A DNA stretch of 64,000 nt from an uncultured SAR116 cluster alpha proteobacterium (GCA_902625215.1 CACOAO010000002.1:1-64000); one strand, 5' to 3'; numbered from the stretch's first letter, positions 41,933 to 62,901 are shown. Notes: a model not told the origin generated them from the letters alone. Program-made: numbers and translations.

Positions 41933-42907
41933 ATGATTAAATCTAAAACACTTTTTAAAGTTGGAACTGGTTTGGCTGCTATCGTTTCTGCTATAGCTTT
42001 CACAACAAGCCCAACTTTAGCAAAAAAACCTGCAATTGAGGTTGTAACTCATGCCGGAGCTGGCGGAGGAACCGACGTTAATTCAAGAATGATGATGCTT
42101 CGTTCAAGAAGAACTCTTAAGCAAGATATGGTTGTTGTTAATAAAAGAGGTGGCGGTGGCGCAGCTGCAATGAATTATTTTATGACAAGACCTGCCGACG
42201 GTAATACAATATTAACTTTTACAGTTGGTCACGCAATTACAATGGCTATGGGTAAAACTAAGTTAAAAGTTAGTGATATGGCTCCAATTTCAAGAGGGAC
42301 TAATGATCCACAAATTTTAATGGTTAATTGTAAAAAAAGTCCGTATAAAACTCCTGAAGACTTTGTTGCTGGCATGAAGAAAGGCGATAAAATAACTTTT
42401 GGAGGCACTCATACTGGAACTATTGACCATATAACTGTTTTCTTATGGGCAAAAAGACTTGGCCAAAAAATGCCAAAATATATCCCTTATAAGGGTGGTG
42501 GAGAGTTAGCTACAAGACTAGTAGCTGGTGAAGTAGATGTTGGAACACTAAACTTGTCAGAAGCTGCTGCACCTGTTGAAGCTGGCGATATTTGTCCTCT
42601 TGTTATTTTAGCTGAAAATGGTATGGCTCCAATTCCAAAAGCTAAAACTGCAAAGGAATTGGGTATTGACCTTGTTTTATCAACTACAAGAGGCTTTGTA
42701 ACACATGCGGGTGTAGACAAAGCTAGAGTTGCTGAAATGGAAAAAGGTATCCAAAAGGCTATGAAACATTCAATGTATCAAGCCTACTTAGCTAACTCAG
42801 GACTAGATAGTACATCCCCACAACCTTCAGGTCCATGGGGCAAGCAAATTGCATTTATGGTAGGTGAGTTTGGTCCTGCTTTAAAAGAAATGGGCTTAAT
42901 GAAGTAA
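41933..42907 (+). CDS. tctC: Tripartite tricarboxylate transporter substrate-binding protein (TctC family)
   Basis: A 324-aa periplasmic binding protein of the TctC/Bug family. It has a signal peptide (VGTGLAAIVSAIAFTTSPTLA) and a mature start KPAIEVVTHAGAGGGTDVNSR, the typical carboxylate-binding opening. NKRGGGGAAAMNYF and the C-terminal GLMK complete the pattern. It captures a small carboxylate-type solute for TctAB. The ribosome site GGAGG is 7 bp before ATG and is the best in the region. It is followed by a strong hairpin that separates it from tctB. Ligand not deducible; genes downstream suggest a sulfur-containing acid. Confidence 0.9.
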   Translation: MIKSKTLFKVGTGLAAIVSAIAFTTSPTLAKKPAIEVVTHAGAGGGTDVNSRMMMLRSRRTLKQDMVVVNKRGGGGAAAMNYFMTRPADGNTILTFTVGHAITMAMGKTKLKVSDMAPISRGTNDPQILMVNCKKSPYKTPEDFVAGMKKGDKITFGGTHTGTIDHITVFLWAKRLGQKMPKYIPYKGGGELATRLVAGEVDVGTLNLSEAAAPVEAGDICPLVILAENGMAPIPKAKTAKELGIDLVLSTTRGFVTHAGVDKARVAEMEKGIQKAMKHSMYQAYLANSGLDSTSPQPSGPWGKQIAFMVGEFGPALKEMGLMK

Positions 42908-42925
42908 AATAACATTAAAATGTAA

Positions 42926-42952
42926 AAGACCTCTCAATTTTTGGGAGGTCTT
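42926..42952 (+). terminator. Strong hairpin between tctC and tctB
   Basis: AAGACCTCTCAA and TTGGGAGGTCTT form a 12-bp stem (one G-U pair) with a TTT loop. No T run follows, so it is more likely an RNA-stabilising or processing element protecting the tctC message than a full terminator. The tctB start lies 10 bp later without a clear ribosome site. Confidence 0.7.
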
Positions 42953-42962
42953 ACTTAAAATA

Positions 42963-43421
42963 ATGAAAAATATCTATATTGTTCCATTAATATTAACTAT
43001 TTTTTCTTTGGCGGTAATTGCTATTGCTTTTCAGCTTGATACATCACCAGAAATGATAGTAGGTGACAGTATGCAAGCTAGATCCTTCCCAATTTTTTTA
43101 ATGATTTTAAAATTGATTTTAATCGGAATTTTGACTTTTCAGTTTTACAAAAATAATCCAAAGCCTGTGGCATTAGAAAAATACCATACTTGGGGGAGTA
43201 TGTTCTTATTTCTTTTATTTTATCTATTAACGGTTTATACAGATATGTTCATTGGAATTTTTGTTGTAATTTTTCTGATGAGTATTTTGTGGGGTGAAAA
43301 AAGAATTTGGGTTGCTTTTTTAACCGCCACAATAACTCCTGGATTAGTTTTTATGTTGTTTGACTTTGTCTTAAAAATAAGATTCCCTCGGGGTATTCTT
43401 ATGAATTTGTACTATGGTTAG
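42963..43421 (+). CDS. tctB: Tripartite tricarboxylate transporter small membrane subunit (TctB family)
   Basis: A 152-aa inner-membrane protein with four hydrophobic segments, the normal size and topology for TctB. Typical family features are the first helix IYIVPLILTIFSLAVIAIAF, the SMQARSFPIF motif and the C-terminal KIRFPRGIL. It partners TctA in the membrane. It has weak ribosome-site context and lies directly behind the hairpin after tctC. The TctA gene follows after 11 bp. Confidence 0.85.
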   Translation: MKNIYIVPLILTIFSLAVIAIAFQLDTSPEMIVGDSMQARSFPIFLMILKLILIGILTFQFYKNNPKPVALEKYHTWGSMFLFLLFYLLTVYTDMFIGIFVVIFLMSILWGEKRIWVAFLTATITPGLVFMLFDFVLKIRFPRGILMNLYYG

Positions 43422-43432
43422 GAAATATCTTT

Positions 43433-44917
43433 ATGTTTGAACAAGCAATATCTGCAATGGCATCAGTTATCGTTGATCCTTATTTATTAGGCTTAATTTT
43501 TGCGACTACAATTCTAGGTGTTATAATTGGAGTTCTTCCTGGCTTAGGTGCGACAACGGGGGCTGCTCTATTACTACCATTTACATTAACCATGGATCCT
43601 GTTCATGCTATCGCTGTTCTTGCTACTATTTATGTATCCGCAACTTTTGCAGGATCAATTACAGCAATTTTAATAAATACCCCTGGCACATCTGCAGCAG
43701 CGGCTACTACTTTTGATGGATATCCCTTAGCACAAAAAGGTGAAGCAGGTAGAGCTCTTGGTATTGCAGTGATTTCGAGTACTGTTGGTGGTATTTTTTC
43801 AGTTCTAATTTTGTGTTTTGCTGCTCCACTATTGGCAAGGGTTGCTTACGAGTTTAGATCACCAGAATATTTTGCTTTAACAGTTTTCGGATTATCAATG
43901 TTAGCAAGTATCAGCGCTGGTGGGGCTGTAAAAAATCTTATTGGTGGAATATTTGGAGTTTGGCTTTCAACTATAGGTGCTGAACGTGTTACCGGAATTG
44001 AAAGATTTATGTTTGGTAATTATGAATTATATGAAGGTTTGCACTTTGTTCCAATATTTATTGGCCTATTTGCTATATCAGAACTTTTAGTTCAATCTAA
44101 AACTGTTGATAAGATTATAAAAACGGTCAGCATGAAAGCTGTAAAACTTCCAACATTAGAGGATTACAAAAAAATTTGGAAAACAATACTTAGATCTTGT
44201 GGTATTGGTACATTTATAGGAGTCTTACCCGCTGAAGGTGCAACCGTTGCATCAATGATCGGTTATTCAGAAGCTAGAAGATGGTCAAAAAATAAGAAAG
44301 AGTTTGGGAAAGGTTCTATTGAAGGTATCGCTGGCGCAGAAGCCGCAAACAATGCGGCAACTGGCGGAGCTATGGTTCCTACAATGGTTCTAGGAATTCC
44401 TGGTAGTGGAACAACTGCAATAATACTTGTTGGACTTATGGTACATGGACTGAGGCCTGGTGTTTATTTGTTTACAGAACAGGTAGAAAAAGTTTATCAA
44501 ATTTTTGGCTCAATGTTTGTTGCAAATGTGATGTTTATGTTGATGGGCCTTTATGCTGCTAAGTTGTTTGCTAGAGTATCATTAGTTCCAACACAGATTT
44601 TATGGCCTATTGTATTTGCTTTATCAGTGATTGGTGCTTATGCTTTTCAAGGTCAACTTTTAGATGTTTGGTTAGCATTAATTTTCGGTGTTATTGGTTT
44701 TTTTGCAAGAAGACATGGGTTTTCTGTTGCTCCAATTGCAGTCGGTCTTATTTTAGGAGAAATGGTAGAAACAAATTTACAACACTCACTTAAAATGTTT
44801 GATGGCGCTTGGTGGATGATACTTACGCAACCTCTTGCGCTTATGTTTTTAGTATTTGCTTTTTTAGGTTTGTGTGGTCCTATGATTTTTTCTTGGATAA
44901 CTAAGCAAAAAGATTAA
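43433..44917 (+). CDS. tctA: Tripartite tricarboxylate transporter large membrane subunit (TctA family)
   Basis: A 494-aa protein with about twelve membrane segments. The two conserved TctA motifs are clear: IIGVLPGLGATTGAALLLPFT in the N-terminal half and FIGVLPAEGATVASMIGYSEARRWSK plus AAATGG-type EAANNAATGGAMVPTMVLGIPGSG in the middle. It forms the ion-coupled channel that takes solute from TctC. Its C-terminus overlaps the convergent TauE-like gene by 17 bp, with no terminator between. Confidence 0.93.
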   Translation: MFEQAISAMASVIVDPYLLGLIFATTILGVIIGVLPGLGATTGAALLLPFTLTMDPVHAIAVLATIYVSATFAGSITAILINTPGTSAAAATTFDGYPLAQKGEAGRALGIAVISSTVGGIFSVLILCFAAPLLARVAYEFRSPEYFALTVFGLSMLASISAGGAVKNLIGGIFGVWLSTIGAERVTGIERFMFGNYELYEGLHFVPIFIGLFAISELLVQSKTVDKIIKTVSMKAVKLPTLEDYKKIWKTILRSCGIGTFIGVLPAEGATVASMIGYSEARRWSKNKKEFGKGSIEGIAGAEAANNAATGGAMVPTMVLGIPGSGTTAIILVGLMVHGLRPGVYLFTEQVEKVYQIFGSMFVANVMFMLMGLYAAKLFARVSLVPTQILWPIVFALSVIGAYAFQGQLLDVWLALIFGVIGFFARRHGFSVAPIAVGLILGEMVETNLQHSLKMFDGAWWMILTQPLALMFLVFAFLGLCGPMIFSWITKQKD

Positions 44918-45671
44918 TTTTATCAAAAGCGTTACTCATAATAATTCCATTCCAAAGTAGATATAACGCAATTACTGTAAGAGTTGCGTTCAAGATTAAT
45001 TTAAAATATTTACTTCCATATTTAACTAAAATTTTTTTTCCTAAAATGGTCCCTACAAATCCACTTATTATCATTAAAGAAATAAGTAAAAAATATTCAT
45101 GGTAAGCAAAGCCAACAAAACCAAATACCACTACTTTAATTAAATGTTGTATAGACATTAGCGCTGAATGTGTTGCTAAATGTCTTACTGGTTCCAAATT
45201 AAGTGTTTTCACCATTCCTGCTACTAAAGTTCCTGATGCTCCAAAAAAAATTGTCATGAAACCTGAAAATGCACCACCAATTGTAATTTGCTTTGATCCA
45301 ATAATTGGAATTTTTCCATATACTGACCATAATATAAATAGAGCTATTGACGACTGCAGTAACCAAGCATCTATTTGAATAAAAATGGAACCTCCAATTA
45401 TAGAACCAATAATTGTCCCAACAGTAAATGGAATTAATGTATCCTTTTTAATGTCTTTTAAAAAAATTATTGTTCTTCCAAGGTTGGAACCTATTTGAAC
45501 AATCCCATGTATTGGTAATAATGCTACAGGTGGTAGTTTGACAGCTAATAATCCCAATAAGATTGCTCCTCCTCCTATACCAAAAGCTGAAGTTATAAAT
45601 GAAGTAGCCATACTAGAAAAAATTAAAAAATATGCTGTTAGGTTCGAAATCGACTCAGGAAACTCTAACAT
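44901..45671 (-). CDS. TauE/SafE-family sulfite/anion exporter-like permease
   Basis: A 256-aa polytopic protein of the TauE/SafE/TSUP family: two repeats of about four membrane helices, with FGIGGGAILLGLLAVKLPPVALLPIHG in the first and GGAFSGFMTIFFGASGTLVAGM in the second. Members export sulfite, sulfoacetate or other anions released when organosulfur compounds are broken down. It is 1 bp downstream of the ThDP-enzyme gene on the same strand, so the two are co-expressed. That pairing suggests the enzyme's pathway yields a sulfur anion. Confidence 0.82.
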   Translation of the reverse strand: MLEFPESISNLTAYFLIFSSMATSFITSAFGIGGGAILLGLLAVKLPPVALLPIHGIVQIGSNLGRTIIFLKDIKKDTLIPFTVGTIIGSIIGGSIFIQIDAWLLQSSIALFILWSVYGKIPIIGSKQITIGGAFSGFMTIFFGASGTLVAGMVKTLNLEPVRHLATHSALMSIQHLIKVVVFGFVGFAYHEYFLLISLMIISGFVGTILGKKILVKYGSKYFKLILNATLTVIALYLLWNGIIMSNAFDKINLFA

Positions 45672-45672
45672 A

Positions 45673-47325
45673 CTATTTTTTTAAAGCGTGAGGAGGCGGA
45701 GCAAAGTAACGCGGCATTTCTCCAACTGATGCTACATTAACCTCTACCAATACTGGACCGTCATAATTTACAGCATCCTTTAGAACCTTTTCTAATTCTT
45801 TTGCATAATCTATTTTCTTATATTTCATTTTGGCTACTTTTGCTAAGTCTTCAAAATTTGGTCCCATTAAATCAGCAAAATATTTTCTTCCACCATACAT
45901 GCTGTCTTGAATGTGTTTTATAACACCATAACCGTTGTCATTCATCACTAAAAAAACAACATCACAATTTGTTTCAGAAGCAGTCCACAAATCTGGAAGA
46001 TTAAGCATAAACCCACCATCCCCACACATTGCTATCGTTTTTTTCCCCTCGCTTGCAATTGCAGCTCCAATAGCCAGAGCCATTCCAGGACCAATTGCTG
46101 CACCAACAGGATAAATATTTTCTGTAGGGTCATTTATATACATCATACGATTTCCCCACATACTATTTGATATAGTAACATCTCTAACCCACTTACCATC
46201 TTTTGGAAGAATGTTTCTAATTATTTCTGGAAAATCTTTATACGCTCCTAACATATTTTTATAATCTAAATAAATTTGTCTTTTTAAATTACTAACCTCA
46301 TCTTTCCACTCATTCTCTATAGAGATTTTACCGGCTAATCTTTTAGCTAATTCAGCTAGAACCTTTTTAGCATCTCCACAATGAAATTCATTTGTTTTGT
46401 ATGTTCTATTTTTGGCACTGGGGTCTACATCAATTTGCACTATTTTTTTTGGTAACTGGAGTGACATGTCTCTAGTCTCATGACCTCTTAATCTACTCCC
46501 TACTACAAGCATTAAATCTAATGTTTTGTAAAAGTCCTCTATTAAAGGAACAGCATTAAAAGCTCCCAAACACATTTGATTTGTTTCTGAAACTACACCT
46601 CTACCTTGAGTGCTTGTTACAACTGCAAACCCCATTTTAATGAAAAGATTAATTTCTTTAGTTGCGAACTTAGCTCCATTTCCTACCCAAATAATTTTTC
46701 TTTTAGAAGATTTTATATAATTTTCTATTTTATCTAGTGATTTTGTATCACCTAATTCACCACTCATATCAGGTAAATTAAACGTATCCAGCAAAGAAGG
46801 CCTTTTAATTTTTTTTCTTTGAATGTCTATGGGTATTTCAATTGAAACTGGTCCTTTAGGAGGTGTAAGAGCTACCTTGCATGCATAGATTAATTTTTCT
46901 AATGCCTCATTTTCGTCATCTATTCTAATAGCCTCTTTGGAAATTGTATTAAGCATACCTAGTTGATTAGGAACATCATGGACTGTGCCCTGATTTTTAT
47001 CTAAATTTTCTGTTGCAGTTTGACCTGTAAAGTGCAACACAGATGAACCTGCAAAGCGAGATTCTACGATTGCACCTGCAACATTTGCTGCACCAGGTCC
47101 CGTGCTTGTAAACACGACGCCAAGTCCATTACTAGCCCTAGCATAACCGTCAGCCATATGACCAGCTCCCATTTCACCTCGTGCAGGGATCATTCTAATA
47201 TGATTTCTTCTACCAATTGCATCTAGCATTGGAATATTATGAACTGAGACAACACCGAAAACATCCTTAATATCTATTTGGTGTAGAAACTCAGAAACCA
47301 GATCTCCTACATTGTAGTCTTTCAT
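45673..47325 (-). CDS. ThDP-dependent enzyme of the acetolactate synthase/benzoylformate decarboxylase superfamily
   Basis: Three domains as in AHAS/decarboxylases, about 550 aa. The N-terminal pyrimidine domain has RGEMGAGHMADGYARAS with the activating Glu near residue 47. A middle domain holds IIWVGNGAKFA. The C-terminal pyrophosphate domain has the ThDP motif GDGGFMLNLPDLWTASETNCDVVFLVMNDNGYG. The ATG at 47325 is chosen because GGGGGA stands just before it; the track's TTG at 47355 has none. It lacks the segments I expect in sulfoacetaldehyde acetyltransferase. A 2-oxoacid, perhaps a sulfur-containing one, is the likely substrate given the TauE-like neighbour and the divergent rhodanese. 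Confidence 0.8.
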   Translation of the reverse strand: MKDYNVGDLVSEFLHQIDIKDVFGVVSVHNIPMLDAIGRRNHIRMIPARGEMGAGHMADGYARASNGLGVVFTSTGPGAANVAGAIVESRFAGSSVLHFTGQTATENLDKNQGTVHDVPNQLGMLNTISKEAIRIDDENEALEKLIYACKVALTPPKGPVSIEIPIDIQRKKIKRPSLLDTFNLPDMSGELGDTKSLDKIENYIKSSKRKIIWVGNGAKFATKEINLFIKMGFAVVTSTQGRGVVSETNQMCLGAFNAVPLIEDFYKTLDLMLVVGSRLRGHETRDMSLQLPKKIVQIDVDPSAKNRTYKTNEFHCGDAKKVLAELAKRLAGKISIENEWKDEVSNLKRQIYLDYKNMLGAYKDFPEIIRNILPKDGKWVRDVTISNSMWGNRMMYINDPTENIYPVGAAIGPGMALAIGAAIASEGKKTIAMCGDGGFMLNLPDLWTASETNCDVVFLVMNDNGYGVIKHIQDSMYGGRKYFADLMGPNFEDLAKVAKMKYKKIDYAKELEKVLKDAVNYDGPVLVEVNVASVGEMPRYFAPPPHALKK

Positions 47326-47411
47326 TAAATCCCCCATTTTGACTAACCTTATCAAAAAACATATATTAATTTTTTTAATTATTAAATTTAAATAAATGAT
47401 TCTATTTTAAG

Positions 47412-48968
47412 ATGAAAAGTTTAGTAGAAGCAAAAACAGTAAAAAGTTGGATTTCTGATGATAAAGAGCTTGCATTCATTGATGTAAGAGAGACGTCTCA
47501 ACATAGCGCTGGTCACCCTTTTTTTTCTATTTCAATTCCATATAGTGAGTTTGAAATAAATGTTGAAAAGCTAATACCTAACAAAAAAGTACGCATAGTT
47601 TTATTTGATAATAACAACGGTGTATCAGAAATAATTTACAAACAGGCAAAAAATTTAAAATATATAAATATTTATATTTTAAAGGACGGAGTTGAAGGAT
47701 GGATAAAGTCTAATTTTCGTTTATTTGAAGGAATTAATGTACCTAGTAAAAGTTTTGGTGAATTAATTGAAGAAAAATTTAATACGCCATCTATAACAGC
47801 ATATCAGTTATCAAAAAAACAAAAAGAAAAGAAAGATATTATTATATTAGATGGCAGACCATTCGACGAATATAATAAGATGAGTATACCAGGAAGTGTT
47901 TGTTGCCCAAACGCTGAAATACCTTACAGAATTTCTGAATTAATAAAAAGTTCAGATACTGAAATTATAATTAATTGCGCTGGTAGAACAAGATCAATTA
48001 TAGGCACTCAAGCACTGATAAATTTTGGTATAAAAAATAAAGTTTATGCGCTAGAAAATGGAACACAAGGATGGTTTTTAAATAATTTTAAGTTAGATTA
48101 TGGAAAAACAAAATTTTTGGATAAAACACCTAATAATGAAAAAATTAATGAACTTCGAAATAAGGTTATAAATTTATTAGAAAATAATGTTAAGATCATT
48201 GACTTTAACCAAGCTCAGAAACTCATTGATAATAAGAATTTTTCTACATATATTTTTGATGTCAGAACAAACTCAGTTAAACAAAATGAATTAGCTAAAT
48301 TAAGAAACGTACCTGGTGGTCAATTAATTCAAGCTACTGACAAATATATAGGTGTATTAAAATCACATATAATTTTATTTGATGATGGTGATCTAGTAAG
48401 AGCAGGTATGACAGCATTATGGTTAAAAAAAATGAACTATCATTGTTATGTTGTTAATGAAAGCCCTGAAAGAAGCAAAAATTTAAATCTCAGACATGAA
48501 GTAAATTTTAAAACTAAACCTATAAACTTAATTAAATTAGATGATTTAAAAAATTTAGAAAATCTACATATCTTTGACGTTAGAAACAGCGTTGATTATT
48601 GCAATAAAAGAATAAAAGGTTCAATTTGGACTAATAGATTAATAATTAAAAAAAATTTGAAGCAATATATAAAATCTATCATTCTAATTGCTGATGATTT
48701 ACCTAAAGCAAGTCTAATTGTGAGTGATATAAAAGAAAAAAATCATAAGTCTGTTGTTCAAGTTTGTCATTGGAATGAAACAGACGTTGAACATTATTTT
48801 GATTATATCGATTCAAGGAAAGTTGAGTTGGATGAAAAATTCATTGATTTTAATTTTCATACACACCTTCGCCATCATGGAAACAAAGAACACGCCAAAA
48901 ATTACTTAAAATGGGAGACGAATTTAATAAAAGAGATGGATGAAGAAGAAAGAGATTTTTTTAGGTAA
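47412..48968 (+). CDS. Four-domain rhodanese-type sulfurtransferase
   Basis: A 518-aa protein made of four rhodanese domains, at about residues 3-105, 125-228, 262-362 and 372-470. The repeat is visible in the strand before the acidic tail: FIDVRE, ILDGRPFDEY, IFDVRT, IFDVRN. Only the second domain has an active-site cysteine loop, NCAGRTRS (Cys189). The equivalent loops in domains 1, 3 and 4 read LFDNN, LFDDG and IADDL, with Asp in place of Cys. A His-rich tail follows (FHTHLRHHG). It probably moves sulfane sulfur to or from a thiol. Divergent from the ThDP-enzyme gene and overlapping the convergent cupin gene by 8 bp. Confidence 0.88.
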   Translation: MKSLVEAKTVKSWISDDKELAFIDVRETSQHSAGHPFFSISIPYSEFEINVEKLIPNKKVRIVLFDNNNGVSEIIYKQAKNLKYINIYILKDGVEGWIKSNFRLFEGINVPSKSFGELIEEKFNTPSITAYQLSKKQKEKKDIIILDGRPFDEYNKMSIPGSVCCPNAEIPYRISELIKSSDTEIIINCAGRTRSIIGTQALINFGIKNKVYALENGTQGWFLNNFKLDYGKTKFLDKTPNNEKINELRNKVINLLENNVKIIDFNQAQKLIDNKNFSTYIFDVRTNSVKQNELAKLRNVPGGQLIQATDKYIGVLKSHIILFDDGDLVRAGMTALWLKKMNYHCYVVNESPERSKNLNLRHEVNFKTKPINLIKLDDLKNLENLHIFDVRNSVDYCNKRIKGSIWTNRLIIKKNLKQYIKSIILIADDLPKASLIVSDIKEKNHKSVVQVCHWNETDVEHYFDYIDSRKVELDEKFIDFNFHTHLRHHGNKEHAKNYLKWETNLIKEMDEEERDFFR

Positions 48969-49473
48969 TGACTTTAATTTTAGATCTTTTTATATTATCC
49001 AAGTTAGCGCCCTCAATCCTTAATAATCTTACGGGATGCTTTCTAACTGGTGAATGAACATGTCCAACATCGTAAAATTTTACATCACCAGCTTTCATAG
49101 TATATGTTTTTTTTGGCCTAACATTTACAAAATCATCTAAAAAATTTTTTTCAACAATTTCCCAATCAGTCATTTCTGTTTCACCAGAAGCTTGTCCATA
49201 AATTGCCCAGCTTGATCCATGGTCATGAGGGTCACCTATTGCTTCATTGTCATGAACATGACCACAAACACAAAAACCTGTATCTTTATCTTCATAAAGT
49301 ACTTGCCTAGGTAATTCACCATTAGCTCTATCAGGAAGATTATCAGTTATAAAATTTTGATCCATAAGAGCTTTTTCGACAAAATAACAAATTTTATCTG
49401 AACCATATGGCATTTTTTCATTATTAATAATTTCTTTAATATCTTGAACTAAATCTTCTAAAGTGTAAGGCAA
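48961..49473 (-). CDS. Cysteine-dioxygenase-like cupin
   Basis: A cupin of about 170 aa resembling thiol dioxygenases of the cysteine/3-mercaptopropionate type. The iron-ligand His-x-His is in GDPHDHGSSW, followed by GETEMTDW with an acidic residue and a third His in DVGHVHSPV. The ORF track begins at TTG 49485, but GGAGG overlaps that codon and is spaced 5 bp from a second TTG at 49473, which is the better start. Such enzymes oxidise a thiol to a sulfinate. It closes the metY-hydrolase-ligase-DapA-cupin minus-strand run. Exact thiol unknown. Confidence 0.7.
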   Translation of the reverse strand: MPYTLEDLVQDIKEIINNEKMPYGSDKICYFVEKALMDQNFITDNLPDRANGELPRQVLYEDKDTGFCVCGHVHDNEAIGDPHDHGSSWAIYGQASGETEMTDWEIVEKNFLDDFVNVRPKKTYTMKAGDVKFYDVGHVHSPVRKHPVRLLRIEGANLDNIKRSKIKVIT

Positions 49474-49511
49474 TAGTTCCTCCAATATTAGTTTACAAGT
49501 ATTTTATATTT

Positions 49512-50429
49512 TCATTTTCCCCATCTTAAAGCGATTGGATCATATTTCTTAACTAATTTGATTAATCCTGCTTTAGTTTGTTCTTCTAAAGTGGAAATTG
49601 GATGTCTACAAAAATCTGAATTAATGACACACCCTTCTTTCATAATTACCTTCGTTGCTCTAAATCCACATTGCCTATTTTCATAATTAATTATAGGTAA
49701 TATATTATTATATTTATCTTCAGATTTATCAATTTCACCGGCTAAATAATCTAAAACAACTGGTCTGATTAAGTCTGGTATCATTGCTGAACTCATATTG
49801 CCAGTTGCACCAGCTTCTAAATCAGCAAACAATGTTATTCCTTCTTCACCGTCAAATGGTCCTTCAATAAAATCACCACCTTCAACTACAAGTTTTCGTA
49901 ATTTAGAGGCTGCTTGCGCACACTCAATTTTAAAACATTTAACTGTTTCTATTTCCTTAGCCATCTTAATTAAAAGAGGCACAGGCAAATCAACCCCTGA
50001 TAATGGTGCGTCCTGCACCATAATGGTTACTCCTACCTCCCCTACTTTTGCAAATTGCTCAAATGTTTGTTGGGACGTTCCTCTCATTAGTGCGCCATGA
50101 TATGGTGGCATCATCATAAGCATTTCACCACCAAGTTCTTTTACTAATTTAGCTCGCGAAAGTGCAATATCTGTTGAGAAATGGCTTACAGTTGTGATTA
50201 CAGGAACCCTACCAGAAACGTGTTCAATACATAATCTAGTTAAAATCTCCCTTTCTTCGTCAGATAACAAAAACTGCTCAGAATAATTTGCTAAAATACA
50301 AATACCATCAACATTTTGGTCCACCATACAATCTAAAACTCTTTTCATGCCATCTAAGTCGAGCTCGCCATTATCTTTAAATGGTGTTGGAGCCACTGGC
50401 CAGCAACCTTGAAATTTATTATTTGCCAT
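49512..50429 (-). CDS. DapA-family lyase/aldolase with substituted catalytic tyrosine
   Basis: A 305-aa TIM-barrel of the dihydrodipicolinate synthase / N-acetylneuraminate lyase family: WPVAPTPFKDNGELDLDGM at the start, YHGALM, and the Schiff-base lysine in VKCFKIE (Lys167). The tyrosine that normally lies 28 residues before this lysine is Gln139 (MVQDAPLSG). True DapA is therefore unlikely, and a dehydratase or aldolase acting on a 2-keto acid is more plausible. AAGGGG is 5 bp before the ATG. It is followed after 26-38 bp by the cupin gene in the same operon. Confidence 0.78.
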   Translation of the reverse strand: MANNKFQGCWPVAPTPFKDNGELDLDGMKRVLDCMVDQNVDGICILANYSEQFLLSDEEREILTRLCIEHVSGRVPVITTVSHFSTDIALSRAKLVKELGGEMLMMMPPYHGALMRGTSQQTFEQFAKVGEVGVTIMVQDAPLSGVDLPVPLLIKMAKEIETVKCFKIECAQAASKLRKLVVEGGDFIEGPFDGEEGITLFADLEAGATGNMSSAMIPDLIRPVVLDYLAGEIDKSEDKYNNILPIINYENRQCGFRATKVIMKEGCVINSDFCRHPISTLEEQTKAGLIKLVKKYDPIALRWGK

Positions 50430-50465: not shown

Positions 50466-52046
50466 TTAAATATTTTTATTTTGCCAAGTATCTATAGTAA
50501 CCCCTTCTTCTCTCAGTATATTTTTTTGTATTTTACCTGTTTGTGTTTTTGGAAATTCTTTCATTACTCTTATGTATTTCGGTATGGCAAACTTAGCTAA
50601 ATTTATTTTTATTTTTTCAAGTAATTCATCAAAATCAATATTGATTTTGTTGTCAATCATCAAGGCTACCATTACTTCATCTTCCATTCCTTGACCTCCA
50701 TCAGCTGAAATTGCATATGCAGCTGCTTCTGTAATAAATGGAATTTCTAAAAATGCTTGCTCAACCTCGTATGATGAAATGTTCTCACCTCTTCTCCTTA
50801 TGCAATCCTTAATTCTATCTACAAAAACAAAGTGTCCTGACTTTTCTCTAATCCCTGCATCGCCAGTATGAAACCAGAAATTTCTCCAACTTTCGACAGT
50901 TTTCTCTGGCATTCCTAAATAACCAGACATAAAACCAAAAGGTTGTTTTGGTCTTACAACTATTTCACCAACCAAGCCGTCATTAACAGGTATGTCTTTT
51001 TCAGGATCTCTTATTTCAACCTCAAAATATTTATCATATAATTTTCCACACCTGCCATTACCTATTTCACTTTTTGAACCATATATTGGAATATTCACTT
51101 CTGTCATACCATAAAGGGGTAATACATATTTTACACCAAATCTATTTCTAAATATTTTTTCAGGTTCACTCGGCAACGGAGCTGAACCAATTACTATCAA
51201 ATTATGATCTTTATCGTATTTAGTAGGTGGTTGAGCAACAATAAACGCAGCTATTGCACCTAACATATTAGTATGTGTTACATTATACTTTCTAATATCT
51301 TTGAGCCAATTTGAAGCTGAGAATCTAGTTCTTATAACTGCTTTTGCACTGGTCATGATACAAGCTAAAAGTTGCATAAATAATCCATTGGCATGGAATA
51401 AAGGTAATGAAATATAAAATGTGTGATCATCTCGTAAGTTATAATTTTCAATTGTCCCTATAGCGAATAAAACACAATGTGCATTTGGCATCATAACCCC
51501 TTTAGAAGGCCCTGATGTTCCACTTGTAAACATAGTACAAACGTTATCACTCAACTTTCCTAAAACAACATTATCTTCATTCAAAAGATCTTTGTTTTTT
51601 AAATTTTTACAATTTAAAATTTCAACTTGTATTTTATGAAGATTAATTAAGCTTTTGACTTGATGAAAAAATTGATCCTCAACAAGAACAACTTTTGAAT
51701 TAGATGTCTTAATTTGATGTAATAAAACATTTCCTTTTATAGCAGTGTTTATAGCTACAAACATAACTCCTATAAAACTGCATGCTATCCAATATATAAT
51801 GAATTCTTTTGGGTCTTCTATTAAAACTGTTAAATTGTCACCTTCATTTAAACCCAATTCTTCTAAAATTTTAGCTTTTTCTAAAGATTTAATTTTTAGG
51901 TCATGGAAAGTCCATTTTGGTCCATCTATAAAATTAATGATTTCTCTTTTTGGATGTTTTTTACACTGATCTAAGATAATTTCAGAAATTCTCCAATGAT
52001 CAGGATTTTGAACATTATTAAATAAGAAGTGATTTTTTGTGTTCAT
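50466..52046 (-). CDS. Acyl-CoA ligase, crotonobetaine/carnitine-CoA ligase-like
   Basis: A 526-aa adenylate-forming ligase. The P-loop is MFTSGTSGPSKGVMMP near residue 172, the A8 region is YGMTEVNIPIYGS, and the hinge is FHTGDAGIREKSGHFVFVDRIKDCIRRRGENISSYEVE, with the catalytic lysine in TQTGKIQK near the C-terminus. RGENIS and the overall look are closest to CaiC-type ligases, which activate small polar acids. It lies between the alpha/beta hydrolase and DapA-like genes in one operon, so it may supply CoA thioesters for the same unknown pathway. Confidence 0.82.
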   Translation of the reverse strand: MNTKNHFLFNNVQNPDHWRISEIILDQCKKHPKREIINFIDGPKWTFHDLKIKSLEKAKILEELGLNEGDNLTVLIEDPKEFIIYWIACSFIGVMFVAINTAIKGNVLLHQIKTSNSKVVLVEDQFFHQVKSLINLHKIQVEILNCKNLKNKDLLNEDNVVLGKLSDNVCTMFTSGTSGPSKGVMMPNAHCVLFAIGTIENYNLRDDHTFYISLPLFHANGLFMQLLACIMTSAKAVIRTRFSASNWLKDIRKYNVTHTNMLGAIAAFIVAQPPTKYDKDHNLIVIGSAPLPSEPEKIFRNRFGVKYVLPLYGMTEVNIPIYGSKSEIGNGRCGKLYDKYFEVEIRDPEKDIPVNDGLVGEIVVRPKQPFGFMSGYLGMPEKTVESWRNFWFHTGDAGIREKSGHFVFVDRIKDCIRRRGENISSYEVEQAFLEIPFITEAAAYAISADGGQGMEDEVMVALMIDNKINIDFDELLEKIKINLAKFAIPKYIRVMKEFPKTQTGKIQKNILREEGVTIDTWQNKNI

Positions 52047-52073: not shown

Positions 52074-52871
52074 TTATTCTAGCTTTAAAAGAAAAGAATT
52101 TATTATTGAGTTTAATTCCATCGGCCTTTCAGACGGAAGAAAGTGACCACAATCAAGAACGTGAGTTTCACAATTTTTAATAAGTTCCACGAATTTTAGA
52201 CCTGATTTTAATGGTGTCATTTGATCATTTTTTGCCAAAACAGCTAATGTTGGAACTTTTATTTTTTTTGCTGCATTTATCCCATCTAAATAATCATTAC
52301 AAGAGTTTAAATCATATTTTAAAGCTGTTGGCTTGTTCATGCACATTATGTTATTACCTTCTCCATAATGTGAATGTCCTGGCCATTTATTAATTGACAT
52401 ATCACCATCAATGCCATGTCCCCAAGTTACCATCATTTCTGAGGCTTTTTGTGGATTTTCCTCTGAAAGATCTAATAGGAATTGGTTAACTGGAATTATA
52501 TTTGATCCCGCAACAAATATTATTGATTTCAGAAAACTTTTGAAAATCCTATTCAATTCTAAGGCTACTAAACATCCTTGAGAATGTCCGATAATAACCA
52601 CATCTTTCAAATTTAGTTTAACTAATAAGTCATTTATCCATTCAGCATTTTCTTTTATTGACTTGCAGGGATTACCATCAGAAAATCCATGGGCTGGCAT
52701 ATCAGGGACAATTACAGAATAGCCTTTATAAGCAAAAAAACGAGCCTGTTGAATGAAGCTCAAATGATTTTGACCAGACCCGTGTAAAAAACATAAAGTC
52801 CTTTTAGTATTATCTAAACTTTTACCACCTGTACCTATATAGGTATCAGCATCTTTAAAACTAATGATCAT
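52074..52871 (-). CDS. Alpha/beta hydrolase
   Basis: A 265-aa alpha/beta-hydrolase. The oxyanion motif is CFLHGSGQNHLSF near residue 28, the nucleophile elbow is IGHSQGCLVAL with Ser near 98, the acid is LAKNDQMTPLKSG, and the catalytic His is in LDCGHFLPSERP near the C-terminus. No signal peptide, so cytoplasmic. Esterase, thioesterase or C-C hydrolase activity cannot be told apart by eye. It is 8 bp after metY and 27 bp before the ligase gene, suggesting one transcript. Confidence 0.83.
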   Translation of the reverse strand: MIISFKDADTYIGTGGKSLDNTKRTLCFLHGSGQNHLSFIQQARFFAYKGYSVIVPDMPAHGFSDGNPCKSIKENAEWINDLLVKLNLKDVVIIGHSQGCLVALELNRIFKSFLKSIIFVAGSNIIPVNQFLLDLSEENPQKASEMMVTWGHGIDGDMSINKWPGHSHYGEGNNIMCMNKPTALKYDLNSCNDYLDGINAAKKIKVPTLAVLAKNDQMTPLKSGLKFVELIKNCETHVLDCGHFLPSERPMELNSIINSFLLKLE

Positions 52872-52878
52872 TATATAC

Positions 52879-54174
52879 CTACTTATTAAGTTTTTTTACA
52901 GCTTTGAAACCTCTTTCAAAGTCTTTTGTGATGTCATTAATATCTTCTAATCCAACCGACAGTCTTATCATATCATCAGTTAATCCACCCTCTTTCATAG
53001 CCTCTGAACTTAAATGAGAGTGAGTTGTACTCCCTGGATGAATAAGTAGTGTTTTAGCGTCACCAACATTTGCTAAATGTGAAGCTAATTGAACAGATTC
53101 AATGAATGCTTTACCTGCTTCACGTCCACCTTTAATACCAAAAGCAACGATTGACCCTGACCCTTTAGGTAAGATTCTTTTTGCTACTTGATGGTCAGGA
53201 TGTGTTTCTAAATCTGGATGTTTTACCCATTCTACCATTTCATGATTTACTAAAAAATCTAATATAGAGTGAGTGTTTTCAATATGTTTTTTCATCCTCA
53301 AAGGTAATGTTTCAATTCCTTGCATCAAATGAAATGCATTAGTTGGGGATAAGGAAGGTCCAAAATTATACATACCTTCTGCTCTTATTTTTGCTATTAA
53401 AGCAGATGGACCAAATTCTTCCCAAAAACTTATGCCACCTAAAGCAAAATGTCGTCCTGAAATAGTGGGAAATTTATCTTTATCTCCCCAATCAAAGTTA
53501 CCACCATTTACAATAGCGCCCCCTATCGCAATACCATGACCACCTAACCACTTAGTAAGTGAATGAACAATAATATTAGCCCCATGTTTAAAAGGCTGCA
53601 TTAAATATGGAGTATTAAAAGTCGCATCTAGTACTAATGGGATATTTTTTGAATTACATATTTTAGCAATTTCAGGAACATCCATTATATCTAAGCCTGG
53701 ATTCCCGATAACTTCTCCAAATACTAATTTAGTGTTTGGTTTTATAGCTCTCTCAATTGCATCTGGATCATTGGGATTAACAAAATCGGTCTTAACACCA
53801 AAACGAGGCATAGTATGCTGAAGTAAATTAATATTTGCTCCATACATTTTACTTGAAGCTACAATATGGTCCCCATTACTACAAATTGCAGAAACCACTA
53901 GATGCATTGCAGCCATTCCACTTGAACACGCAAGAGCACTTGCTCCACCCTCAAGAGCTGCTAACCTCTGCTCGAGTGCGGCAACTGTAGGATTTGATAT
54001 TCTAGTATATAAATGTCCACCAACTTCCATATTATACAAAGAAGCTGCTTCTTCTGTACTATTGAATACGTAGGATGTTGTCTGATAAATAGGAACGGCA
54101 CGAGAGCCAGTTTCTTTGTCAGGAATATGCCCAGCATGTAAAGAGAGGGTGTCGAATTTGTAATTTTCACTCAT
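52879..54174 (-). CDS. metY: O-acetylhomoserine sulfhydrylase (aminocarboxypropyltransferase)
   Basis: A 431-aa PLP enzyme of the Cys/Met metabolism family, the MetY length class. Visible are LHAGHIPDKETGSRAVPIYQTTSYVF at the start, TRISNPTVAALEQRLAALEGG, SSGMAAM, and the PLP lysine in HSLTKWLGGHG. The C-terminal TLLIHPGSTTHS and GLEDINDI are also family marks. It makes homocysteine from O-acetylhomoserine and sulfide (or methionine from methanethiol). AAGGA is 6 bp before the ATG. It heads the minus-strand run that ends in the cupin gene and may recycle sulfide or methanethiol. Confidence 0.93.
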   Translation of the reverse strand: MSENYKFDTLSLHAGHIPDKETGSRAVPIYQTTSYVFNSTEEAASLYNMEVGGHLYTRISNPTVAALEQRLAALEGGASALACSSGMAAMHLVVSAICSNGDHIVASSKMYGANINLLQHTMPRFGVKTDFVNPNDPDAIERAIKPNTKLVFGEVIGNPGLDIMDVPEIAKICNSKNIPLVLDATFNTPYLMQPFKHGANIIVHSLTKWLGGHGIAIGGAIVNGGNFDWGDKDKFPTISGRHFALGGISFWEEFGPSALIAKIRAEGMYNFGPSLSPTNAFHLMQGIETLPLRMKKHIENTHSILDFLVNHEMVEWVKHPDLETHPDHQVAKRILPKGSGSIVAFGIKGGREAGKAFIESVQLASHLANVGDAKTLLIHPGSTTHSHLSSEAMKEGGLTDDMIRLSVGLEDINDITKDFERGFKAVKKLNK

Positions 54175-56033: not shown

Positions 56034-59000
56034 TTGAATTACGTTAATAATATTAGATTAGACGATTGTTTTACTAAGGACAATGATTTAGCACTAATGA
56101 ATGGTGTTCAAGCATTAGTGCGTCTTTTAATTGAACAAGCTAAACTCGATAAAGATAATGGATTGGTCACTCATGGTTATGTCAGTGGTTATCCAGGTTC
56201 GCCGCTTGGAACACTTGATTTAGAATTAGGGAGATCGAAGAAACATTTAGAAAAACATAATATAATTTTTCAACCAGCAGTGAATGAGGAATTAGCTGCT
56301 ACTGCTGCTTGGGGAACCCAAATGCTTGGTCTATATGACAGACCTCAAATAGATGGTGTTTTTTCAATGTGGTATGGTAAAGGACCAGGTTTAGACAGAT
56401 CTATGGATGCACTCAGACATGCAAATATGGGTGGCGTTTCTGTGAAAGGTGGAATGGTATTAGCAGTTGCAGATGATCCAATTGGAAAAAGTTCAACTAT
56501 TGCATACCAATCAGAGCAGTCTCTAATTTCAGCAGGTATCCCAGTTTTTTATCCAGCAAATGTAGATGAAGTCATACCTATGGGACTTCAAGCTTTTGCC
56601 TTGTCACGTCATGCAGGCATATGTGTTGCTCTCAAAATTACAAGTGACACAGCCGATTCAAATTCTGTTATAGACCTTGAAAATTTAAGACCTAATTTAA
56701 GAAAGCTAGAGGACCCAATAAATGTTCATGTCAATAGACATGACCCAGCTTTAGATAGAGAAGCGGCACTAATAAAAAGAAGAATACCTGCATCAAAACA
56801 TTTTATTAAAGAAAACAAAATCAATAAAATCATATTTAATCCAGCAAAAAAGATCTTGGGTATTATTGCTGTAGGAAAAGCAAAAACAGAAACTATAGAT
56901 GCTTTAGATAAAATTGGCATCAAAGATCCTGGAAAAAGTGGTATTGGTCTTTTTGCATGCAAAATACCCTGGCCATTAATAGACCAAGAAATAATTAATT
57001 TTTGTGAAAATTTTGAAGAAATTTTAGTAATAGAAGAAAAAGCTGGTATTGTTGAAGAACAAGTAGCTCACATTCTTTTTAATTGTAAATCTAGGCCTCA
57101 ATTATCAGGAAAATTAGATGCATCCTCTAAAGAAGAATTAATTCCTAAAATATCTGAATTATCCAGTGATATTATCGCAGATTGTTTACTAAAAAAGATT
57201 GGTCATTCATCAATTAATTTTGATATTCCTAAAGCAAAATCTGAATTAATTGGAAGTAATTTACCACCAGTTGCTTCAAGAACACCTTGGTATTGCGCTG
57301 GATGCCCTCACAACTCAGGAACAAAAACGCCAGAAGAAGAAGTTGTCGGTATTGGTATTGGATGCCACTCTATTGGATATTTTCTTCATCCTGAAAAATT
57401 AACAAATTTCAGCCAAATGGGTGGTGAAGGTGGACATTGGATAGGAAGAGCACCATTCTCTAATCATAAACATACATTTCAAAATATCGGTGACGGTACA
57501 TATGCTCACTCTGGTTCTTTAGCAATAAGAGCAGCCGTTTCAGCAGATGTTAATATAACATTTAAAATCCTTTATAATGATGCAGTAGCTATGACCGGTG
57601 GACAAAAAGCTATGGGTGGTGCAACTCCATGGGCAATTTCTAAACAACTTGCAGCAGAAGGTGTTAAAAAAATTTATGTTGTATCGGATGAACCAGAGCA
57701 GTTCAAAGAAACTAAATTATTTGCAGATAAGGTAGAAATATTTGATAGAGACGAGCTCATAAATGTTCAAAAAGAAGCAAGAACTATTTTAGGAGTAACA
57801 GCCATTATATATGTTCAGACTTGTGCGACTGAACTAAGAAGAAGACGTAAAAGAGGATACATTCAAGATCGAGATATTAAAATGTTTATTAATCCTGACG
57901 TTTGTGAAGGATGTGGTGATTGTGCTGAAAAATCAAATTGTGTAGCTGTAAAACCTCTGGATCATTTTGAAGGAATAAAAAAACAAATTGATCAGAGTGT
58001 TTGCAATAAGGATTATTCATGTAAAAAGGGGTTTTGTCCAAGCTTTATTGGCGTTCAATCTGGAAGCGTTGCAAAACCTCAGAAGAAGACTTTTCCACAA
58101 ATTCCTGAAATAGTATTTGGTTTAAAAAAACCAAAAAAAAACTTAAATAAAATTCAAAATATTATTATGGCTGGAATTGGTGGTACTGGAGTTTCAACTG
58201 TCGCAGCAATAATAGTTATGGCTGCTCGAATAGATAAATTATACGCACAATCAATGAACTTTACTGGCCTAGCTCAAAAAAATGGAGCTGTAACTAGCCA
58301 AATTCGGATAGGAAAAGAAAAAAAACTTTACGAGCGTTCTGCTAGACTTCCTAATGAAGCAGCTGATGTTCTTTTAGGATGTGATGCAGTTGTATCAGTC
58401 TCACCATCTATTACTAGAACACTCAATCCAAAAAAGACAATTGCTATCATAAATGGAAGAGTGGAACCTGTTGGTGTTGCTGGAGTTCATATTGGTACCG
58501 TAGTTGATGATAGTTTATTAAAAAAACATTTAGAAAATCACCTTGAAATTGAAAATATAAATTTCATGGATATATCTAATCTAGCTGAAGCTTTGGTTGG
58601 TGACACAGTTTCTGCTAACATAATGATGTTAGGAATGGCTGCTCAAAAAGGCCTTTTACCTATAAAAATTGAGTCTTTAATAAAAGCCATAGAACTTAAC
58701 GGAGTAGCTATTCAACAAAACCTTAATGCTTTTAACTGGGGCAGATTGTTAAGCGAAGAACCTGAAAAAGCTTTTAACGCAGCTAAACTTAAACAAGGAA
58801 AAACTGAATATATTTCAATAACAGATTATGTAGAAAAATTTTCAAAAATTCTTGGAGAATATCAAAATAAAGAGTATTCCCAAATTTTCTTGTCTTCAGT
58901 AAATAAAATAATTAAACGGGAAAAACAAACACCTAATGCGAACAAAGATTTACCTCTTGCGAGAAAAGTTGCTTTAACTTTATTTAGAGCCATGAGATAT

Positions 59001-59474
59001 AAAGATGAATATGAGGTTGCTAGACTTCATACTAGTGGAGAATTTGCACAAAACTTCTTAAATAAAAATAAAAATGCAAAATTAGAGTACTATTTAGCAC
59101 CCCCATTATTTTCAAAAAAAGATAAAGATACCGGACATCTTCTTAAAAGAAGATTTGGACCTTGGATTTTTAATGCTTTCAAGACGTTATCCTATTTCAA
59201 ATTTCTTAGGGGCACTAAATTTGATATTTTTGGATATACATTAGAAAGAAAGAAAGAGAGAGCTTTAGCCAGAAAAACTATTAAAACAGTAAACAAAATA
59301 TCAGATATTCTCAATGAAAATAATTATAATAAAATTTTTGATTTCCTAGATATTCCACTATCCATAAAAGGCTATGGACATGTGAAAGAAAAAAATATGA
59401 ACATAGCTGAAAAAAAATGGGATATAGCTTTTGAGAAAATTATTAATAATAAAAGCCTGAAAAAAGTTAGTTAA
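56034..59474 (+). CDS. Fused indolepyruvate ferredoxin oxidoreductase (IorA-IorB type)
   Basis: A 1146-aa 2-oxoacid:ferredoxin oxidoreductase of the large fused bacterial type. The N-terminal pyrimidine-binding part has HGYVSGYPGSPLGTLDLEL. The central ThDP domain has WYCAGCPHNSGTK and MGGEGGHWIGRAPF. A ferredoxin-like insert near residue 623 has CEGCGDCAEKSNC and a further cysteine group CNKDYSCKKGFC. The C-terminal gamma domain starts MAGIGGTGVSTVAA. It converts aryl or branched 2-oxoacids to acyl-CoA, fitting the adjoining acyl-CoA enzymes. TTG start with little ribosome-site support. It ends 1 bp from the convergent ligase gene. Confidence 0.92.
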   Translation: MNYVNNIRLDDCFTKDNDLALMNGVQALVRLLIEQAKLDKDNGLVTHGYVSGYPGSPLGTLDLELGRSKKHLEKHNIIFQPAVNEELAATAAWGTQMLGLYDRPQIDGVFSMWYGKGPGLDRSMDALRHANMGGVSVKGGMVLAVADDPIGKSSTIAYQSEQSLISAGIPVFYPANVDEVIPMGLQAFALSRHAGICVALKITSDTADSNSVIDLENLRPNLRKLEDPINVHVNRHDPALDREAALIKRRIPASKHFIKENKINKIIFNPAKKILGIIAVGKAKTETIDALDKIGIKDPGKSGIGLFACKIPWPLIDQEIINFCENFEEILVIEEKAGIVEEQVAHILFNCKSRPQLSGKLDASSKEELIPKISELSSDIIADCLLKKIGHSSINFDIPKAKSELIGSNLPPVASRTPWYCAGCPHNSGTKTPEEEVVGIGIGCHSIGYFLHPEKLTNFSQMGGEGGHWIGRAPFSNHKHTFQNIGDGTYAHSGSLAIRAAVSADVNITFKILYNDAVAMTGGQKAMGGATPWAISKQLAAEGVKKIYVVSDEPEQFKETKLFADKVEIFDRDELINVQKEARTILGVTAIIYVQTCATELRRRRKRGYIQDRDIKMFINPDVCEGCGDCAEKSNCVAVKPLDHFEGIKKQIDQSVCNKDYSCKKGFCPSFIGVQSGSVAKPQKKTFPQIPEIVFGLKKPKKNLNKIQNIIMAGIGGTGVSTVAAIIVMAARIDKLYAQSMNFTGLAQKNGAVTSQIRIGKEKKLYERSARLPNEAADVLLGCDAVVSVSPSITRTLNPKKTIAIINGRVEPVGVAGVHIGTVVDDSLLKKHLENHLEIENINFMDISNLAEALVGDTVSANIMMLGMAAQKGLLPIKIESLIKAIELNGVAIQQNLNAFNWGRLLSEEPEKAFNAAKLKQGKTEYISITDYVEKFSKILGEYQNKEYSQIFLSSVNKIIKREKQTPNANKDLPLARKVALTLFRAMRYKDEYEVARLHTSGEFAQNFLNKNKNAKLEYYLAPPLFSKKDKDTGHLLKRRFGPWIFNAFKTLSYFKFLRGTKFDIFGYTLERKKERALARKTIKTVNKISDILNENNYNKIFDFLDIPLSIKGYGHVKEKNMNIAEKKWDIAFEKIINNKSLKKVS

Positions 59475-61191: not shown

Positions 61192-62901
61192 ATGGGGTAT
61201 ACGTCTCCTTTAGAGGATACAAAGTTTGTTTTAGAAAATCTTTTGCCTGCTCACGAGGATCTTGATGATAGTACTATTGATGCAGTCCTCTCAGAAGCTG
61301 GAAAGCTAGCAGATAATTACTTAGCACCGTTAAATCAATTTGGTGATAAAAATAATCCTATTCTTAGACAAGATCATGAAGTTGAGACACCTGAAGGATT
61401 TAGTCACGCTTTTTCAGAAATTGCAAAAGGTGGCTGGATTGGAGTAGCAAGTGATTCTAATTACGATGGTATGGGACTGCCTGCAAGAATGAGTGCTGCT
61501 ATTAACGAATATTGGCATGGAGCTAATATGTCTTTCGCATTATGCAGCTTACTTACCCAGGGATTAATTGACGCATTTACTCTAGTCGGAACAGAAGAAG
61601 AGAAGAGAACTTATTTGCCCAAGTTTAATTCTGGGGCCTGGACAGGCACCATGAATCTAACTGAACCTCAGTCTGGAACAGATCTAGCTACAATAAAAAC
61701 TAAAGCTGAATATGATGGTGAAAATTGGAAGATAAAAGGACAAAAAATATACATAACTTATGGTGAACATGATATGTCAGAAAATATTATTCATTTAGTT
61801 CTGGCAAGAACTGAAGGAGCACCTGAAGGTATAAAAGGGATTTCTACTTTTATAATTCCAAAATTTTTAAAAGATCAAAGTGGCAATTACACAATTAGAA
61901 ATGATCTTAAATGCATATCTATCGAACATAAAATGGGAATAAAAGCAAGCCCAACAGCAGTAATGTCATATGGAGAGAATGAAGGCGCTGTGGGTTATAT
62001 GCTAGGCGAAGAAGGTAGAGGCATTGAATATATGTTTATTATGATGAACAGAGCAAGATTTGATGTTGGACTTCAAGGAATGGCAATTTCAGAGGCTGCA
62101 AGACAAAAAGCACTAGAGTACGCAACCACAAGAATTCAAGGAACTCCAATTAATAGAGAAAATGGCACACCAATAATAGGCCATGGTGATGTAAAAAGAC
62201 TACTTTTATCAATGCGCAGTCTTACGGAGGCAATGCGTGCTCTAATTTTAGTTTCATCCGAAATTATGGAAAGAGCACATAACGGGGATGAAAAGTGCAA
62301 ATTGAAAGAAGGTTTTTTAATTCCTATAATCAAAGGTTGGTCAACTGAATTAGCACAAGAAGTTACAAGTAATGGACTACAAATTCACGGAGGTATGGGA
62401 TTTATTGAAGAAACTGGAGCTGCCCAGTTTATGAGAGATGCTAGAATTTTACCAATATATGAGGGAACCAACGCTATTCAAGCCAATGATTTTATGTTCC
62501 GGAAAACTCTAAGAGATAGTGGAAAAACAGCTAAAGAATTTTTAAAAGAAATTAAAGTCGACTGCACGCAAAATCAAGAAATGTCAAATATGATAAACTT
62601 AGCATCAAATACTTTAGATTTTATTTTAGAAAACAGAGATGATCCTGAAATGCTATCTTGCATTAGTTTTGATTACATGATGGGGTTCGGATATTTAGTT
62701 GGTGGATGGCTCATGCATAAAGCAAAAGAAAAGGCTAATTTAAAATTGTCGAATGAAAATCAGAAAGAAAATTTTCTAAAAAGTAAAATCATTTCAGCTG
62801 AATTTTATGATTTTCATATATTACCGAGAGTAGAATCTCATTTTAAAATTGTTGTTAAAGGGGCAACCGTAGTTAAATCAACAAACGATTCTTTTATTTA
62901 A
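61192..62901 (+). CDS. Acyl-CoA dehydrogenase, DmdC-like long form
   Basis: A 569-aa acyl-CoA dehydrogenase with N- and C-terminal extensions, the size class of DmdC (3-methylmercaptopropionyl-CoA dehydrogenase) and not of the 390-aa enzymes elsewhere in the window. The catalytic Glu is in the canonical ILPIYEGTNAIQ site near residue 425. FAD-domain motifs include NLTEPQSGTDLATI and GQKIYITYGEHDM. Divergent from the DmdB-like gene. GGAG lies 7 bp before the ATG. If the pair acts on DMSP, a DmdA and a DmdD must be elsewhere, as neither is in the window. Confidence 0.8.
   Translation: MGYTSPLEDTKFVLENLLPAHEDLDDSTIDAVLSEAGKLADNYLAPLNQFGDKNNPILRQDHEVETPEGFSHAFSEIAKGGWIGVASDSNYDGMGLPARMSAAINEYWHGANMSFALCSLLTQGLIDAFTLVGTEEEKRTYLPKFNSGAWTGTMNLTEPQSGTDLATIKTKAEYDGENWKIKGQKIYITYGEHDMSENIIHLVLARTEGAPEGIKGISTFIIPKFLKDQSGNYTIRNDLKCISIEHKMGIKASPTAVMSYGENEGAVGYMLGEEGRGIEYMFIMMNRARFDVGLQGMAISEAARQKALEYATTRIQGTPINRENGTPIIGHGDVKRLLLSMRSLTEAMRALILVSSEIMERAHNGDEKCKLKEGFLIPIIKGWSTELAQEVTSNGLQIHGGMGFIEETGAAQFMRDARILPIYEGTNAIQANDFMFRKTLRDSGKTAKEFLKEIKVDCTQNQEMSNMINLASNTLDFILENRDDPEMLSCISFDYMMGFGYLVGGWLMHKAKEKANLKLSNENQKENFLKSKIISAEFYDFHILPRVESHFKIVVKGATVVKSTNDSFI

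Follow-up and report, generated by a model that had tools for sequence, protein, structure and literature searches.

A thiol-dioxygenase-like cupin and a four-domain rhodanese are paired across taxa and form a candidate thiol-oxidation module in a SAR116 genome

A cupin and a four-domain rhodanese encoded next to each other in a SAR116 genome are paired across taxa, and they probably form the functional core of their locus, a two-gene thiol-oxidation module set among genes that mostly serve other purposes. The window, the whole 64,000-nucleotide stretch of DNA that we analysed, lies on contig 2 of an uncultured SAR116 (Puniceispirillales) genome (2.0 Mb, 88.8% complete) whose close GTDB relatives are named SAR116 single-cell genomes. 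A sequence-only reading of the window had joined eight genes into a pathway for a small sulfur acid; the part of that proposal that concerns the cupin and the rhodanese stood, and the single pathway of all eight genes did not.

All eight open reading frames were found at exactly the limits that reading had given, with the families it had named. A protein scan recovered the Pfam families TctC, TctB, TctA, TauE, TPP_enzyme N/M/C, Rhodanese and DHDPS, and the cupin was recognised by its predicted fold instead. The eight genes, with three downstream neighbours, are:

41933-42907, plus strand: TctC solute-binding protein (PF03401)
42963-43421, plus strand: TctB small membrane subunit (PF07331)
43433-44917, plus strand: TctA large membrane subunit (PF01970, E 6e-151)
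44901-45671, minus strand: TauE/SafE-family permease (PF01925, E 6.5e-20)
45673-47355, minus strand: ThDP-dependent enzyme (NCBIfam PRK07064 equivalog, 708 bits against a cut-off of 495)
47412-48968, plus strand: four-domain rhodanese of the PA2603 type, 518 aa (phmmer to 1YT8, E 1.5e-72)
48961-49485, minus strand: thiol-dioxygenase-like cupin, 174 aa (predicted fold and conserved residues)
49512-50429, minus strand: L-2-keto-3-deoxyarabonate dehydratase homologue, DapA superfamily (7C0C/3FKK, E about 1e-96)
50466-52046, minus strand: acyl-CoA ligase, in a same-strand run with the cupin (PF00501)
52074-52871, minus strand: alpha/beta hydrolase, in the same run (PF00561)
52879-54174, minus strand: O-acetylhomoserine sulfhydrylase (PRK08134 equivalog, above cut-off)

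The gene cluster continues past 50429, with the same order up to 59474 in family members whose sequence reaches that far. A fused indolepyruvate-ferredoxin-oxidoreductase-family gene (56034-59474, 1146 aa) is conserved at the edge of this syntenic block.

The cupin has no Pfam or NCBIfam match, and neither the whole genome nor the protein scan gave a match to Pfam CDO_I (PF05995) at E 0.001. A Foldseek search with its AlphaFold model (pLDDT 94) returned thiol dioxygenases (MSDO, 3MDO, CDO and PCO) at all of ranks 1-41 (E 3e-10 to 4e-7), led by the mercaptosuccinate, 3-mercaptopropionate and cysteine dioxygenases. At the level of sequence profiles, the best PDB matches of the cupin family were weak (mercaptosuccinate dioxygenase 8VNI, E 0.015; 3MDO 6XB9, E 0.18), and a profile-profile comparison with 3MDO/MSDO/CDO homologues gave a probability of 97.7% over 164 columns. 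Together these three comparisons bear out the proposed thiol-dioxygenase likeness and support a structural relationship between the predicted cupin fold and the thiol dioxygenases. A DMSP-lyase cupin was ruled out, as no DMSP lyase occurred among the 50 best fold matches. The cupin family comprises at least 561 confirmed loci; a plasmid search with the cupin gave two weak partial matches only. In-frame TAG stops in eight cupin homologues were taken to be matches overrunning the natural stop, with open reading frames of about 169 aa.

The cupin is predicted to bind iron through His87, His89 and His144, which align with the 3MDO ligands (HxH...H), and its Arg167 aligns with 3MDO Arg168, the residue that binds the substrate carboxylate (PMC8050391). 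All four residues are conserved in 120 of 120 cupin sequences. The positions of the Ser-His-Tyr motif are occupied in the cupin by Leu154, Arg156 and Glu158, so that the motif is absent; Arg156 is found in 120/120 and Glu158 in 119/120 sequences, and His76, Arg60, Arg148, Tyr96 and Tyr128 are also nearly invariant among the 120. Characterised small-molecule thiol dioxygenases retain Ser-His-Tyr, or at the least the His and Tyr (PMC10966181), and the replacement of this motif is our main reason for doubt about the cupin, whose dioxygenase chemistry is not assured. In 3MDO and CDO the motif accelerates the reaction and is not strictly required (PMC8050391). ADO and PCO share with the cupin a thiol dioxygenase fold lacking Ser-His-Tyr, yet they are thiol dioxygenases, with X-Asp-Leu in its place (PMC10966181); this signature was not found in the cupin, which differs from them in its Leu-Arg-Glu and in its smaller size. 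Because a defining motif was tested and is absent, we do not file the cupin as a CDO, 3MDO or MSDO member: it belongs to a separate thiol-dioxygenase-like family, one that has its partner in common with these enzymes. Both kinds of gene coexist in some SAR116 relatives, one of which carries a second, canonical paralogue with a SIHTY motif (L050:9995-10567) beside the Leu-Arg-Glu cupin, as do many genomes of the same genus. No canonical Ser-His-Tyr paralogue was found in the window's own genome.

The partner of the cupin aligns with 1YT8 over residues 16-467 and carries CAGRTR at residue 189 as its only active-site Cys loop; this loop is present in 120 of 121 rhodanese homologues. This rhodanese family is uncommon, occurring in 21 of 299 Pseudomonadota genomes at E 1e-60. 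In the window the two genes are convergent and their 3′ ends overlap by 8 bases, which makes strict co-transcription impossible here. Outside the window's SAR116 family, the four-domain rhodanese lies within 3 kb of the cupin, usually less than 250 bp away, at 22 of 61 cupin loci (20 of the 44 with both flanks readable). The paired loci are scattered over several branches of the cupin tree, among them Hyphomicrobiales, gammaproteobacterial MAGs and SAR116 families other than the window's, and the pair is found in Alphaproteobacteria and a few other Pseudomonadota. A point against the module is that many cupin homologues, in Reyranella and Rhodospirillales, stand without a rhodanese close by. 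In the cupin-locus neighbourhoods outside the SAR116 family, the rhodanese is the one member of the proposed set that recurs near the cupin.

Canonical dioxygenases share this partner. At 10 of 20 rhodanese loci from Pseudomonadota a canonical CDO-family gene adjoins the rhodanese, with both 3MDO and MSDO types represented. We also observed two gene fusions. In one, a single natural 733-aa open reading frame encodes both the four-domain rhodanese and a dioxygenase of the canonical CDO family (L231:5040-7241, minus strand); in the other, a PLP cystathionine-lyase-like domain is joined to the four-domain rhodanese (919 aa in all; L219:6100-8859, plus strand), with a canonical CDO-family gene alongside. 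Within one SAR116 subclade (L057:10547-12471, minus strand; also L059, L061 and L062), CoA-transferase-like and enoyl-CoA-hydratase-like genes lie between the cupin and the rhodanese, directly downstream of the latter.

The window places its cupin beside a four-domain rhodanese just as Msdo- and Mdo-type clusters do, a likeness of position to which the cupin adds a predicted activity. The Msdo clusters of Advenella and Variovorax hold a rhodanese and a cystathionine beta-lyase (PMC5373536), thus likewise setting a cupin of thiol-dioxygenase fold beside a rhodanese, and the Msdo-homologous clusters L219-L221 carry the same four-domain rhodanese as the window. Msdo itself, the best PDB match to the window cupin, is only about 16% identical to it overall and keeps the His and Tyr of Ser-His-Tyr. 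Its clusters also differ in having a PLP beta-lyase; no such gene adjoins the window pair, the nearest PLP enzyme being the single-copy O-acetylhomoserine sulfhydrylase. An adjacent acyl-CoA desulfinase of the Mdo type was likewise not found, the acyl-CoA dehydrogenase at 61192 scoring 84.6 against a 600-bit cut-off. The pseudomonad 3MDO/PA2603-type pair resembles the window pair in its rhodanese family, its immediate adjacency and the equivalent of Arg168 in the cupin, and differs in that the window cupin lacks Ser-His-Tyr and the window genes converge, whereas the pseudomonad genes share a strand. In P. protegens, 3mdo and the PA2603 homologue appear to be one transcription unit; against our reading, deleting the rhodanese gene there did not significantly change the level of 3-mercaptopropionate (PMC12947264). 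The proposed link between cupin and rhodanese holds up, as the pairing recurs across taxa and matches the published Msdo- and Mdo-rhodanese pairs.

We propose that the cupin would bind ferrous iron through His87, His89 and His144 and hold the carboxylate of a small mercapto-acid with Arg167, a mercapto-carboxylate being the most likely substrate to judge from the conserved residues. It would use O2 to convert the thiol into a sulfinate, from which sulfite would then be lost, either spontaneously or through another enzyme. Cys189 of the rhodanese would transfer sulfane sulfur, perhaps onto sulfite to give thiosulfate. The neighbouring TauE/SafE permease, a possible sulfite exporter, may remove excess sulfite in the window's SAR116 family, the only one in which TauE was found near the pair.

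The transporter and the DapA-like gene point elsewhere. The DapA-like protein, described earlier as an atypical DapA-family lyase, can be classified as closely homologous to L-2-keto-3-deoxyarabonate dehydratase and aligns with 7C0C and 3FKK over 300 residues. The alignment with 7C0C spans the full length and includes the PPYHGA and VQDAP.SG motifs and the FKIE motif (residues 166-169), with its Schiff-base Lys167. At one of 20 DapA-like loci (L264) the gene follows TctCBA homologues (50, 29 and 63% identity) and an enolase-superfamily sugar-acid (aldonate) dehydratase. This set matches the needs of a keto-deoxy-pentonate route and therefore points to sugar-acid uptake, so that TctCBA and the DapA-like gene are more likely to take up and break down sugar acids than, as first read, to serve a sulfur pathway. 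The window departs from the 7C0C route in having neither an aldonate dehydratase nor a semialdehyde dehydrogenase next to the DapA-like gene. TctA and TctC show 90-99% protein identity between some genera even though fourfold sites are saturated, a sign of very strong purifying selection. Recent horizontal transfer of TctCBA, considered for its 94-98% protein identity between genera, was rejected since its fourfold sites are as saturated as those of neighbouring genes. Some members of the same genus carry a different TctCBA type (about 87%; L031, L060 and L062 compared with L032, L034 and L057), which suggests that this one site (41933-44917) can hold either of two exchangeable versions of TctCBA.

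That TctCBA, TauE, the ThDP enzyme, the rhodanese, the cupin and the DapA-like lyase make up one catabolic pathway for a small sulfur acid is quite unlikely, and we set this aside as the main reading. The conserved gene order is its natural support, since the order from TctC to the gene ending at 59474 is kept in the SAR116 family members examined, down to about 45-65% identity. However, the window has an unrelated anchor at 19442, about 29.5 kb from the cupin, and in nine relatives this anchor shares a contig with the cupin at a distance of 22-34 kb; as the region is collinear over at least 22-34 kb in the same genomes, local gene order is background and carries little functional information. 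In a known Mdo cluster, mdo has TctC-type receptors as neighbours, and sulfite export by a TauE protein has been proposed for that strain (PMC5373536); the CoA-transferase-like and enoyl-CoA-hydratase-like genes of the SAR116 subclade described above resemble CoA activation of a sulfinate. Against this, ThDP orthologues lie near the cupin, rhodanese or DapA-like gene at 0/20 loci in other Alphaproteobacteria, and DapA-like orthologues near the cupin, rhodanese or ThDP gene at 0/20. The SAR116 relatives L093 and L094, whose cupins nest inside the family in the tree, keep only the cupin and rhodanese, at a different place, and neither a ThDP nor a DapA-like orthologue turned up when their draft genomes were searched (best 26% and 29%). 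Rare adjacency across genomes had been named as what would speak against the eight-gene pathway; most of its genes are indeed rarely adjacent, and the cupin and rhodanese are the exception. The ThDP enzyme is probably a bystander. PRK07064 leads the best 25 of its 54 NCBIfam matches, among which the names sulfoacetaldehyde acetyltransferase (Xsc) and sulfopyruvate decarboxylase are absent. A ThDP paralogue (40-45% identical) occurs at four other loci (L214, L215, L217 and L218), where a conserved operon groups it with genes for a Rieske oxygenase, short-chain dehydrogenases and an ABC transporter of the sulfonate/nitrate type. The acyl-CoA ligase is kept only within the SAR116 family in the neighbourhood comparison. 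The O-acetylhomoserine sulfhydrylase, the sole close copy in the genome and for that reason left out of the module, probably serves housekeeping methionine synthesis.

Two other explanations leave the pair intact and assign it a different reaction. The cupin may have kept the thiol dioxygenase fold while its chemistry changed, so that it acts as an isomerase, a lyase or a sensor, or as a dioxygenase that takes another class of substrate; the rhodanese would then be its sulfur-related partner. Leu-Arg-Glu in place of Ser-His-Tyr, together with the near-invariance of His76, Arg60, Arg148, Tyr96 and Tyr128, suggests just such a dedicated, different active site; but the rhodanese partner is common to 3MDO and MSDO, the carboxylate Arg of the 3MDO type is retained, and ADO and PCO are thiol dioxygenases although they too lack Ser-His-Tyr (PMC10966181), and we regard changed chemistry as unlikely. 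It is highly improbable that the pair instead acts on sulfane sulfur, with the rhodanese making a low-molecular-weight persulfide that the cupin oxidises to sulfite for export by TauE. The conserved Arg167, placed where 3MDO binds the carboxylate, favours a thiol that carries a carboxylate, and to our knowledge the persulfide dioxygenases so far described have a metallo-beta-lactamase fold. What speaks for a persulfide is that the rhodanese and TauE are neighbours of the cupin, and that the known P. protegens system offers no explanation for its paired rhodanese (PMC12947264).

Thiol oxidation by the cupin and rhodanese, the reading we prefer, bears on how thiol dioxygenases are built. These enzymes are thought to need either a Ser-His-Tyr network or the X-Asp-Leu of ADO and PCO around the iron. 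We tentatively suggest that the cupin may represent a third active-site class, defined by three His, a carboxylate Arg and an Arg-Glu pair, which hundreds of bacterial genomes, mostly of Alphaproteobacteria, would use with the four-domain rhodanese on a thiol-acid not yet identified in the ocean. Two SAR116 genome surveys name neither a rhodanese nor a cupin. Paired as it is with both 3MDO and MSDO, the rhodanese is a general partner. If the suggestion is right, the Arg-Glu family would give enzymologists a third arrangement, and it would add a step from organic thiol to sulfite in an abundant ocean clade.
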